A DNA stretch of 64,000 nucleotides from Prosthecobacter debontii (GTDB taxonomy: Bacteria; Verrucomicrobiota; Verrucomicrobiia; Verrucomicrobiales; Verrucomicrobiaceae), in NCBI RefSeq assembly GCF_900167535.1, contig NZ_FUYE01000002.1, positions 62,001-126,000 of the forward strand, given 5' to 3'. The notes under the pieces are model-generated. The model was not told the origin of the DNA. It saw nothing but the letters and a program-made list of their open reading frames with translations, and did not search any database. This document shows, one piece after another, positions 18,303 to 38,437 of the stretch; within the stretch, counting starts at the first letter, position 1, and every line of letters begins with the position of its first letter. Both the position numbers and the translations under genes were made by a program.

Positions 18303-18341
18303 GACCCTGATGCAGAAACCAGAAAAAGTTCGTTAAATCCC

Positions 18342-18372
18342 GGCGGGTTTTGGAAAATACCCATAACCCGCC
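18342..18372 (+). promoter_or_regulatory. Hairpin just before the sigma gene start codon
   Basis: GGCGGGTT at 18342-18349 is the exact reverse complement of AACCCGCC at 18365-18372. The 8-bp stem with a 15-nt loop ends 3 nt before the ATG at 18376, exactly where a ribosome would bind, and there is no Shine-Dalgarno sequence. It could limit translation of the sigma factor or be an operator. It could also be chance. Confidence 0.4.
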
Positions 18373-18375
18373 ATC

Positions 18376-18909
18376 ATGTCCCCTGCCGAGATCGAACAAC
18401 ATCAGCGTTTTCTGCGTGCTCTCTCCACGCATGAGCCGACGGTGCGTGCCTACATTCGCCGTCTGGTCCCCAGCCGTAGCGATGCCGATGATGTGATGCA
18501 GGAGGTGGTGATCCTGCTGTGGGAAAAGTTTGGAGAGTTTCGGGAAGGTGCGGAGTTTCTTCCCTGGGCCTTTGGCATCGCCCGCTACAAGGTGCTCTCC
18601 TGGCTGCGAGATCGGGGGCGAGATCGGTTGGTGCTCAGTGAAGAAGTGGTGGACCTCATCGCCGAAGAGACCGCTCAGGATGAAACCCGACTGGATCGTC
18701 AGCGTCGCGCCCTGGAAACCTGCACGCAAAAGCTGGAGCCTGAACAAAGAGATCTGCTCATGCGTGCCTATCAGCCGCAGGCCCAGATTCAAAACATCGC
18801 GGTGACCAGTGGCCGCTCCGTAGCGGGCTTCTATCAATGGCTACATCGCATCCGACGCTCTTTGTTAGACTGCATTCAACGTGAAATGATTCGGGAGGAA
18901 CCGTCGTGA
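18376..18909 (+). CDS. ECF RNA polymerase sigma factor, Rhodopirellula/Verrucomicrobium type
   Basis: The 177-residue protein shows sigma region 2 ([17 protein letters not shown] and [19 protein letters not shown], about residues 36-82). It also shows a region 4 helix-turn-helix (about 118-165) with the [10 protein letters not shown] motif and a relaxed second helix. It belongs to the ECF group named after Rhodopirellula and Verrucomicrobium (TIGR02989-like). It should direct RNA polymerase to a small regulon that normally includes its own operon. The next gene, a FecR-type membrane protein, starts inside its stop codon (GTGA overlap), which marks that protein as its likely anti-sigma partner. 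Confidence 0.92.
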
Positions 18910-20363
18910 ATCTCGAAGAACTCACCCATCGTTATCTGGATGGCCACGCCACCGAAGAAGAGGTGCGGAAACTGGATCGTCTGCTTTTGGCCCAAGCCGA
19001 TGCCCGCCGTGCCTTTGCAGAACTGGCCAATCTGGATTCTGCGCTGGCTGAACAAGCTGCTGGATGGCAAGAGACCACGACAACTCCCATCAAAGCAGCT
19101 CCTCCCGCGCGGATGAATACGTGGCGTTGGCTCACAGCCGCCGCAGCGGTAATCGCGATATTTCTAGGCATCTGGGGCTGGGTTATCAACGCTCAACCCT
19201 ATGCGACCGTGGTGCGGGGCATGGGCAGGCTAGACTTCACTCCCGGCATGGAGGTTGGTTCCGGCTGGCATGACATTGAGGTTGGCACGGTGGAATTCGT
19301 CACGACACGCGGTGCCCGTGTGGTCATCGAGGCACCGGCCTCCTTTGCTTTTGAAAATGGTCAAAGACTGCGTCTGAAACATGGGCGGGTGGCAGCGGAT
19401 GTGCCGCCTCCGGCAAAAGGTTTCACCGTCATCACTCCCACCGGGAAGGCCGTGGATCTGGGCACCAAGTTCGGAGTCGATGTCTCCCGGCAAGGGCAAG
19501 CGGAAATCCATGTGTTTCAAGGCGAAGTCATCGCACAGTCGGCTCAAGGGGGCAAACGCCAGAGCCTGCGCGATGGTGAAGCTTTCTCCCTAGAATCTGG
19601 AGCGGGCACCTCACGCGAAATCCGCTCCGCGGCGTTCATTCAACCGGATGAAACCGCAGCACTCCAAGCAGCGCTCGCCGCAGGTCAGCAAGCCCACTCC
19701 GATGCCGCCACTGCTGCTTTACGCAAGGACCCCACTTTGATCGCCTATCTCGATTTCGAAGGCAGCTCGCTCCCTGAAGGTGTCTTTCACCTCACGCAAG
19801 GCCGTTGGCCAGGTTCGAAGGCCCCTGAGTTTGTGCATGTGGGGGATCACATGAAGCTCAATGTCGGTGGCGATCATTCCTGGCCACAACTGACGCTTGC
19901 CGCATGGGTGCGCCTGGATCGGCTTGGGGCTCCTTACCAATCCCTCTACCACACCGATGGCTGGGATGAAGACAAGTCAGGGCAGGTGCACTGGATCATC
20001 AACCGAGACAGCACCATGCGTTTCGCGCTGAAGCACAACACGCTGGCTCCAGGCTCCACGGAGACTCAAGGCTTCCCCGATTCACGGACTCCGGTGCTAC
20101 CCGAGCAAGGACGCTGGGTTCATCTCGCCGTGGTTTACGACTCGGTTGCCAAGACGGTGCGCTTTTATCTGAACGGTCGTTTCGACAAAGAAACGCGGCA
20201 AGCCATCGCGCATCCAGCTCGTCTGGGCCCAGCGCAAATCGGCAACTGGAACTCACGCGACCGGAAGCTGAGCGGACGGGTGGACGAACTCTTTTTGTTA
20301 GGCCGTTGCATGCGTGAGGATGAAATCCGCCGCCTGTATGAGGCAGGCAATCCCTACCGCTGA
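18906..20363 (+). CDS. FecR-type anti-sigma/sensor protein with C-terminal LamG domain
   Basis: Domains in order: a short cytoplasmic N-terminus (1-70) containing [17 protein letters not shown], like anti-sigma zinc-free domains; one membrane helix (about 73-93); and a periplasmic FecR domain (about 115-230; [20 protein letters not shown] is the core motif). A LamG/concanavalin-like jellyroll follows (about 270-480; [38 protein letters not shown]). FecR proteins pass signals across the membrane to ECF sigma factors; LamG domains often bind glycans. This architecture therefore suggests a sensor that reads an extracytoplasmic ligand. The GTG start has a good ribosome site (GGAGG at 18894-18898, 7 nt spacing), rare in this window. 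The PSD1 cytochrome gene follows after 20 nt. Confidence 0.88.
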
Positions 20364-36322: not shown

Positions 36323-36453
36323 AAGGGACGGCGATCATGGCACGACGCAGAAAGAATGCCACCCCGGAAGCCGCATGGCATGAAAACAAGCTCGGGGTCG
36401 CTCCGCCCGCCCTTCTTTCTCTTCGTCGTTAGTTTTCCTGTCCAAATCTCCGC

Positions 36454-36478
36454 TCTCTCGGCCTATCTTCCTGAGAGA
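36454..36478 (+). promoter_or_regulatory. Hairpin just before the second sigma gene start codon
   Basis: TCTCTC (36454-36459) pairs with GAGAGA (36473-36478), and GG/CC just inside add two more pairs past a one-base bulge. The stem ends 4 nt before the ATG at 36483. Position and form parallel the hairpin before the first sigma gene, though the sequence is unrelated. I see no clear promoter hexamers in 36323-36482. Confidence 0.3.
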
Positions 36479-36482
36479 ACCA

Positions 36483-37001
36483 ATGTCTGCCGATAAGACC
36501 ACGACCTTTTTAGAGCTGTTGACCGCGCATGAGCGATCTCTCTCGCTCTATGTCCATGGCCTCGTGCCGCGTGACAGCGAAGCGGAAGACATCCTCCAGC
36601 AGACGAAGCTGCTGCTGTGGAAGCATTTCGATGATTTCACCCTGGGCACCAACTTCATTGCCTGGGCCAGGAAAACCGCTTTTCACCAAATCCTCACGCA
36701 TCGCCGGCAGAAGAAGCGCGAGCATTTACCCCTGGATGAGGAGGCGCTGGAAGCACTCGGACACGCCATTTCTGAATTGGCGGAGGAGGGCAGTGCTCGG
36801 CAGGAGGCCCTGCGCGCTTGTTTGACGCGCCTACCCACGGAGCACCGCCAACTGGTGCACTTACGTTACTTTGATGACCTAGAGATTGATCAGATCGCTG
36901 AGCGTGTCGAGCGCACGGAGGCGGCCGTCTATCGCGCACTCAGCCGTGTGCGCATGACTCTGATGCAATGCGTGCAAAAACAGATGGAGACTCATTCATG
37001 A
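36483..37001 (+). CDS. ECF RNA polymerase sigma factor (second copy of the type)
   Basis: The 172-residue protein has region 2 (DSEAEDILQQTKLLLWKHF; TNFIAWARKTAFHQILTHR) and region 4 (LTRLPTEHRQLVHLRYFDD then the helix-turn-helix QIAERVERTEAAVYRALSR). Region 4 is better conserved than in the first sigma factor of the window. It belongs to the same Rhodopirellula/Verrucomicrobium ECF type. It overlaps the next gene by ATGA, so sigma factor and membrane partner are made together. It should transcribe its own operon and other targets unknown. Confidence 0.92.
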   Translation: MSADKTTTFLELLTAHERSLSLYVHGLVPRDSEAEDILQQTKLLLWKHFDDFTLGTNFIAWARKTAFHQILTHRRQKKREHLPLDEEALEALGHAISELAEEGSARQEALRACLTRLPTEHRQLVHLRYFDDLEIDQIAERVERTEAAVYRALSRVRMTLMQCVQKQMETHS

Positions 37002-38437
37002 AAACTGACGAAACCTGGCACTGGCTGGAGCTGTGGGAGCGTGCCCGCGATCATGCTCTGACGACTGATGAACAAGCCCGGCTTAACGACGCACTGAAGA
37101 ACAATGCTGAGGTGCGTAACCTCCTGGCTGAAGCCGCCCTTCTCGAGGCGGAGCTACGGAGCGGTAGTCTGGAGGAAGCCCCGGTCTCCCCCGCCGCTGG
37201 ATCCACTTCCCCTTCCCGCTCTTGGGCCTCGCGTGTGGCCCAGGTGGTGCTGCCCCTAGCCGCAGCCATCGTCTCCGCCGGAGCCGTTTGGCTTCTGAGC
37301 CGTGAGCCCGCCCCCGCAGCCACACTCACGAAAGCCAGTGCTTGCAAGTGGGGTAACAGTGCTCTGCCCACGCTGGAGGGATCCAGCTTACAGCCTGGAA
37401 TGCTCGAATTGCTGGACGGGATTGCCACCTTGAAATTCGCCAGTGGAGCGGAGGTGGCCCTCGAGGCCCCCGTCACCCTGGAGGTAGTCTCGGCCATGGA
37501 GTGCCGCGTGAAAAAAGGCACCGTGGTGGCTGAAGTGCCGCCTCAAGCCAAGGGCTTCACCATTCACACGGATGAAACCACCGTGGTGGACTATGGCACA
37601 CGCTTCGGGGTCAGTGCCGGAGAGGATGGCAAATGCCTCGTGCATGTGATCGAGGGCCTTGTGGAGGTGGAGCACGCCGGAGTGAAAGGCCGCAAAGAAC
37701 TGCGCGCGGGCCAACGCGTGGACTACGGTGGCTTCATCCAGAGCGCCGCCAATCCCGACGCCAACGTAACGGACTCCCAACCCGAACCCGGCCGCTGGCT
37801 GCCTAGCCCGATTAACGACTTGGGTGACGGCTGGCAGATCCTCACCACCGCTTTTGGCCGTGGCAAGGATTCGTGGATTCAATCCAACCTCAAGCAAGAC
37901 GTCACAGGGCGTGAATCCTACCTGCGCATCAAACACACCACGCATGACATGAATCTGGATCGCAAAGCCTATGTGGCTTTCGATCTCACACGCTTTGCCG
38001 ACAAGCACATCGCAGAGGCTGAGTTCACCCTGCACGTGGAGCCCAGTGATCTCGGCTTTGCCTCTCTCGTGCCTGACGCCGTGTTCAGCGTCTATGGCCT
38101 CACGGATGAAACCCAAGATAGCTGGGATGAAAAAGAGCTGCATTGGTCGCATGCCCCCGCTCACAGCATGGCCTCTGAGCACCGAACCGGAGTCGTCGAA
38201 GGACAAGCTCTGAAGTTGGGCCAATTCACCGTGCCCCAGGGCACCACCCGTGGTGGGTTCACCGTTAAAGGCCCAGCCGTGGCAGATTTTCTGCGGTCTG
38301 ACACCAACGGTTTGGCGACCTTCATCATTATCCGTGAGACCGATGAAACGGCCCGAAACGGCCTCGCCCATGCCTTTGCCAGCAAGGAAAATACCCGTAA
38401 TACGCCTCCCATGCTGAAAGTGCGCTTAGAAGATTGA
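36998..38437 (+). CDS. FecR-type anti-sigma/sensor protein with C-terminal CBM96/DNRLRE-like domain
   Basis: The 479-residue protein parallels the one at 18906: a cytoplasmic N-terminus (about 1-75; LWERARDHALTTDEQARL), one membrane helix (about 80-103), and a FecR domain (about 125-245; AKGFTIHTDETTVVDYGTRF is the core). A C-terminal domain (about 290-479) has LRIKHTTHDMNLDRKAYVAFDL, ELHWSHAPAH and a late TFIIIRETDETARNG; this pattern fits the DNRLRE/CBM96 carbohydrate-binding-like family. The ATG at 36998 is in a 4-nt overlap with the sigma gene; an upstream in-frame codon at 36968 is unlikely. No PSD1/DUF1501 pair follows, so this is a two-gene module. Confidence 0.86.
   Translation: MKTDETWHWLELWERARDHALTTDEQARLNDALKNNAEVRNLLAEAALLEAELRSGSLEEAPVSPAAGSTSPSRSWASRVAQVVLPLAAAIVSAGAVWLLSREPAPAATLTKASACKWGNSALPTLEGSSLQPGMLELLDGIATLKFASGAEVALEAPVTLEVVSAMECRVKKGTVVAEVPPQAKGFTIHTDETTVVDYGTRFGVSAGEDGKCLVHVIEGLVEVEHAGVKGRKELRAGQRVDYGGFIQSAANPDANVTDSQPEPGRWLPSPINDLGDGWQILTTAFGRGKDSWIQSNLKQDVTGRESYLRIKHTTHDMNLDRKAYVAFDLTRFADKHIAEAEFTLHVEPSDLGFASLVPDAVFSVYGLTDETQDSWDEKELHWSHAPAHSMASEHRTGVVEGQALKLGQFTVPQGTTRGGFTVKGPAVADFLRSDTNGLATFIIIRETDETARNGLAHAFASKENTRNTPPMLKVRLED

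Follow-up and report, generated by a model that had tools for sequence, protein, structure and literature searches.

The window, the whole 64,000-nucleotide stretch of DNA analysed here, corresponds to C2:62001-126000 in the 6.3-Mb, 99.6% complete genome of Prosthecobacter debontii. At 36483-38437 it carries a sigma factor gene followed by a gene for a FecR-type protein with a CBM96-like C-terminus, as a sequence-only reading had stated, and the TIGR02989, FecR and CBM96/DNRLRE profile scores confirm this assignment. Adjacent to the module are a 161-aa ORF on the minus strand, a gene with a bifunctional-nuclease domain and one for an SSF transporter. A sister module lies 18.1 kb away, in agreement with the spacing of 18 kb first given, and is followed by PSCyt1/2-PSD1 and DUF1501 genes. 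The features are as follows.

36439..36445, plus strand: -35-like element TGTCCAA of the predicted autoregulatory promoter (pattern match; conserved upstream of orthologs)
36461..36466, plus strand: -10-like element GCCTAT, exactly 15 bases past TGTCCAA (ortholog upstream alignment)
36483..37001, plus strand: ECF sigma factor of the TIGR02989 (Rhodopirellula/Verrucomicrobium) subfamily, 172 aa (158 bits)
36998..38437, plus strand: single-pass anti-sigma factor of FecR type, 479 aa counted from the start in the ATGA overlap, with a CBM96/DNRLRE C-terminus (Pfam FecR and CBM96, NCBIfam DNRLRE)
37244..37300, plus strand: single transmembrane helix, VLPLAAAIVSAGAVWLL region (Kyte-Doolittle maximum 2.16 over 19 residues)
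37496..37666, plus strand: FecR domain, extracytoplasmic (Pfam PF04773, residues 177-233)
37865..38422, plus strand: CBM96/DNRLRE beta-sandwich sensor domain (NF033679, residues 300-485; Foldseek top match 7vbo, also 8wab)
18331..18356, plus strand, for contrast: the different predicted promoter of the LamG module, CGTTAAAT-N13-GGAAA (conserved in orthologs)
18376..20363, plus strand: sister module, TIGR02989 sigma and FecR-LamG anti-sigma (Pfam/NCBIfam profile matches)

The sigma ORF exceeds the TIGR02989 cut-off of 124.55 bits and covers model positions 2-158. The genome encodes about 28 TIGR02989-like sigma factors and four FecR proteins, every one of which lies behind such a sigma: two carry LamG and are linked to PSD1 genes, one carries LamG and stands alone, and the fourth is the CBM96 protein of the window, whose sigma alone in this genome has a FecR-CBM96 anti-sigma as its partner. 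Judging from the overlap with the sigma stop codon (...TTCATGAAAAC... around 36998), an ATGA arrangement seen in many homologs (gap -1), the anti-sigma more likely starts at 36998 than at 36968, where the ORF had first been placed.

The anti-sigma ORF scores 30.6 bits for FecR (Pfam cut-off 24) and has one hydrophobic helix, after about 80 residues, which the AlphaFold model places at 75-100. The whole-protein model matches the FecR-family anti-sigma 4m0n and PupR 6ovk in Foldseek. The protein has the characteristics of a FecR-type anti-sigma: a FecR domain, a helical N-terminal domain, a single TM helix and a gene directly after that of an ECF sigma. An ECF sigma with a FecR-fold anti-sigma is likewise found in FecI-FecR-FecA and PupI-PupR, but the window module has a CBM-type C-terminus, and no TonB-dependent receptor gene was found among the adjacent ORFs. 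The closest functional parallel is SigI/RsgI of the cellulosomal clostridia, which works alike. RsgI anti-sigma factors carry exchangeable carbohydrate-binding domains. They are membrane proteins, each with its own sigma, and sense different polysaccharides (PMC4711584, PMC6056542, PMC12203970). The window pair differs in belonging to another sigma family and in having a FecR domain in place of the RsgI domain; a Pfam scan of the anti-sigma gave only FecR and CBM96 above cut-off. Its host, unlike those of SigI/RsgI, is Gram-negative, so that with a single inner-membrane helix the CBM96 sensor probably faces the periplasm. For this reason the earlier description of the module as a switch for surface ligands appears doubtful.

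The C-terminal domain scores 34.6 bits for CBM96 (Pfam cut-off 26) and 45.6 bits for DNRLRE (cut-off 34). Searched against solved structures with phmmer, it matched 7vbo, the CBM96 of an alginate lyase (E=1.7e-7), and a profile of 19 homologs gave two matches only, 7vbo and 8wab, a DNRLRE protein that the structure library lists as the chondroitin-sulfate-binding module of a chondroitinase. 7vbo was also the best PDB match in Foldseek for AlphaFold models of both the whole protein and the C-terminus alone, in which confidence is modest (mean pLDDT 57 and 63, respectively); the fold resembles TGF-beta/BMP prodomains too. Among 19 homologs picked by C-terminal similarity, FecR was present in 19 and CBM96 in 18. 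The idea that the C-terminus lacks a CBM-type fold thus fails, both on family membership and on the first rank of 7vbo by fold.

The window domain has its family and fold in common with 8wab and with the CBM96 TM6-N4, but sits in an anti-sigma instead of a lyase. Seven residues of TM6-N4 are essential for alginate binding (PMC9971899). Two of these, K27 and R36, have equivalents in K322 and R332 of the anti-sigma, which are invariant in 19 sequences, although this conservation may be structural. K22 and K31 are replaced by S317 and H326, K25 is not conserved in paralogs, and K10 and Y159 are not aligned. With only two of the seven kept, alginate itself is not indicated, and we reject it as the specific ligand. 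Elsewhere in the genome a DNRLRE domain occurs just once (L033, C9:239372-239929), in an 850-aa open frame, the upstream part of which matches glucose/sorbosone dehydrogenase.

One alternative, which would leave the regulon described below unchanged, is that the C-terminal domain does not bind sugar at all and is a stress or protein-interaction module, like FecR in cell-surface signalling, with the switch triggered by a protein partner or by damage to the envelope. The loss of most alginate-contact residues and the likeness to prodomains are consistent with this, as is the occurrence of DNRLRE domains in proteins without known sugar binding (PMC9971899). In addition, ECF factors of R. baltica, including one with a link to a PSD1/PSC gene, went up under heat, cold and salt stress (PMC2754498). 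However, the nearest relatives of the domain in both sequence and structure are CBMs for alginate and chondroitin sulfate, LamG and PA14-like domains occupy the same place in sister modules, and one target has a Golvesin_C domain, while some PSCyt genes encode CBMs. We therefore think this alternative rather unlikely, and prefer a saccharide-binding sensor.

Full-length orthologs of the anti-sigma (E below 1e-99) were found in 61 of the 68 Verrucomicrobiaceae genomes, in Prosthecobacter and other members of the family. The genes directly after 85 sampled TIGR02989-like sigmas, a sample that favours high-scoring sigmas, were tabulated by the domain following FecR, as the sequence-only reading had proposed. 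About 33 had LamG (with membership assigned via clustering with tested representatives), 19 CBM96, one a PA14-like domain scoring just under the cut-off, and about 13 FecR with an unassigned C-terminus; the rest were without FecR. The two modules of the window are therefore not isolated cases, and the suggestion of a modular family of sigma switches with varied C-terminal domains is borne out. The accompanying idea of sensor swapping fared less evenly. In a tree of 80 of the sampled sigmas, which has long branches and hence unsure deep joins, all 19 sigmas of the CBM96 type form one clade with one change of state (support 96/89), so that frequent swapping is rejected for this class. In contrast, the LamG label changes more often, 8 times, at least 6 of which are forced by starred branches.

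Two further observations concern sensor variety. The sigmas of L180 and L216 are nearly identical on the tree, yet the next gene encodes a 489-aa FecR-LamG protein in one and a 310-aa protein in the other, a difference that may reflect truncation, a frameshift or real domain loss. Separately, three FecR proteins behind TIGR02989-like sigmas (L144:4557-6020, L172:899-2329 and L188:907-2328) have C-termini that cluster together; no Pfam match for this region was found in the two members scanned, L144 and L172, and it is a candidate new sensor domain.

Systems in which a TIGR02989 sigma and a FecR-LamG protein lie next to PSCyt/PSD1/DUF1501 genes in Planctomycetes and Verrucomicrobia share with the window module the sigma subfamily, the single-pass FecR anti-sigma and the target families. 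The window module differs in having a CBM96 sensor in place of LamG, a distinct promoter and a predicted regulon that is dispersed and unlinked from its own position. A link between the R. baltica ECF factor RB10049 and the PSD1/PSC2 gene RB10051 was suggested earlier by Studholme et al., as cited in PMC2754498, and a connection with carbohydrate metabolism has been made for verrucomicrobial PSCyt genes (PMC5615132). In the literature searched, neither FecR-LamG nor FecR-CBM96 anti-sigma factors were found to be described. The present analysis contributes the CBM96 class, its promoter motif and a predicted regulon in trans.

A pattern search places TGTCCAA-N15-GCCT at 36439-36464, 44 bp upstream of the window sigma. 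The same motif, with a spacing of exactly 15, precedes the sigma gene in each of the 25 distinct main-group orthologs for which upstream sequence was available, the -10-like box being GCCT or, rarely, GACT, ACCT or GACC. Both boxes are kept while the spacer has diverged, in alignment sets partly chosen by the motif. The remaining CBM96 lineages have close variants, and the element differs from one sigma lineage to another: TGTCCAT-N14-GACTA, CGTTAAAT-N13-GGARA in the LamG module of the window and its orthologs, and GGCAAAT..GGAATGT. In the genome of the window the LamG pattern, CGTWAAAT-N13-GGARA, occurs once, at the LamG sigma. The promoter classes are not fully separate, since some LamG lineages share a GTCCAAA -35-like box but have a different -10 box. 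In the LamG-type modules L152, L157 and L163, a TGTCCAAA -35-like box upstream of the sigma is combined with a downstream box of another kind, a hint that promoter specificity changed step by step.

A conserved bipartite promoter before the sigma operon, with lineage-specific variants, is characteristic of ECF autoregulation, and we infer that the window sigma recognizes it. With about 28 TIGR02989-like sigmas in the genome, the element could instead be read by another sigma or an activator, the window sigma being merely one target. This we consider improbable, since the element varies along with the sigma lineage that it precedes, as expected for autoregulation, and the genome has only the one FecR-CBM96 anti-sigma.

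The exact motif has 7 sites in the genome of the window, as many as a control pattern, so that the case for a regulon rests on position and conservation. One site precedes the sigma gene. Of the 6 others, 4 stand 27-66 bp upstream of genes for exported proteins, namely two FAD_oxidored paralogs and two PS_pyruv_trans (polysaccharide-pyruvyl-transferase-family) paralogs. None of the 11 newly found one-mismatch sites in this genome had a plausible gene at promoter distance. Across the genus (48 genomes), a longer pattern gave 49 matches against 10 for the reversed pattern, and 24 of the 45 unique sites lie at promoter distance from an ORF start, compared with 5.8% of random positions. The genes behind the genus sites encode the sigma, PSCyt1-PSCyt2-PSD1, DUF1501, FAD_oxidored (one type with Golvesin_C) and PS_pyruv_trans proteins. 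When orthologs were selected by homology, the exact motif or a close variant was found before nearly all PSCyt1/PSD1 genes, and the motif before 13 of the 29 PS_pyruv_trans genes, many of the others appearing to sit closely behind another gene. The absence of a target gene adjoining the module in the window and the chance-level motif number would suit a degenerate or ordinary stand-alone ECF/FecR pair that regulates itself only, but this is very improbable given the full-length orthologs across the family and the motif conserved before homologous targets in other genomes.

One PS_pyruv_trans gene in the genome of the window (C27:40265-42919; L274, L012) has a CBM96-type promoter and lies directly behind another ECF sigma match and a short membrane-protein-like ORF, and may thus have two inputs. 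Other DNRLRE-type sigmas of relatives could also read the same promoters.

The sequence-only reading had contrasted the CBM96 module with its sister by the lack of PSD1/DUF1501. None indeed lies next door, but as a functional difference this is misleading, since the motif precedes such genes elsewhere and relatives keep them adjacent to the module. In several relatives the orthologous sigma pair stands back to back with PSCyt1-PSD1, with DUF1501 nearby. For example, at L261:5780-5903 and L270:6395-6509, two TGTCCAA-N15-GCCT promoters face each other at a distance of only a few bases, with the sigma operon on one side and a PSCyt1-PSD1 gene on the other. The genes for sigma, anti-sigma, PSD1 and DUF1501 form a collinear array in L174, L187 and L195, which belong to a sister lineage. 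In the subclade of the window the module is stand-alone. The genome of the window does have a PSD1-DUF1501 operon, at about 49.8-54.35 kb of C20, with no sigma pair directly in front. A near copy of the motif, TGTCAAA-N15-GCCTTATA, is found 41 bp upstream of its start and differs at two positions, which makes it invisible to the one-mismatch search. The PSD1 protein of this operon has 79% identity to that of the L187 operon, a type that elsewhere follows a CBM96-type sigma/anti-sigma pair. As the sole FecR-CBM96-paired sigma, the window sigma would be the natural candidate to drive the C20 operon, and the module probably controls PSD1/DUF1501 in trans.

The reading that we favour, and consider reasonably likely, is that of a sigma switch that spans the membrane, responds to glycans and controls a dispersed regulon. 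In the scheme that we infer from the computed domain architecture, the cytoplasmic N-terminus of the anti-sigma would hold the TIGR02989 sigma, and the protein would cross the inner membrane once and present its FecR and CBM96-type domains to the periplasm. The sigma would be freed or activated once a saccharide, probably an anionic oligosaccharide, binds the CBM96 domain, and would go on to initiate transcription from TGTCCAA-N15-GCCT promoters, serving its own operon and unlinked exported-protein genes of the FAD_oxidored, polysaccharide-pyruvyl-transferase-family, PSCyt1-PSCyt2-PSD1 and DUF1501 types.

More tentatively, and with less expectation that it will hold, the Verrucomicrobiaceae may possess a set of sigma switches that respond to glycans and are insulated from one another, their sensor domains having diverged in step with their promoter code. 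In this view the switch with CBM96 would have become detached from its ancestral PSD1/DUF1501 operon, and in the genome of the window would also govern the orphaned PSD1-DUF1501 operon, whose own sigma pair would have been lost. The PSCyt/PSD1/DUF1501 proteins, at present poorly understood, would on this reading be an inducible periplasmic glycan-processing machinery.

In Planctomycetes and Verrucomicrobia, PSCyt, PSD1 and DUF1501 form amplified but functionally uncharacterized families. With the promoter and the sigma defined and a candidate class of sensor at hand, there is a direct route to the inducers of these proteins. The data also suggest a path by which a linked sigma-operon unit can become a dispersed regulon.
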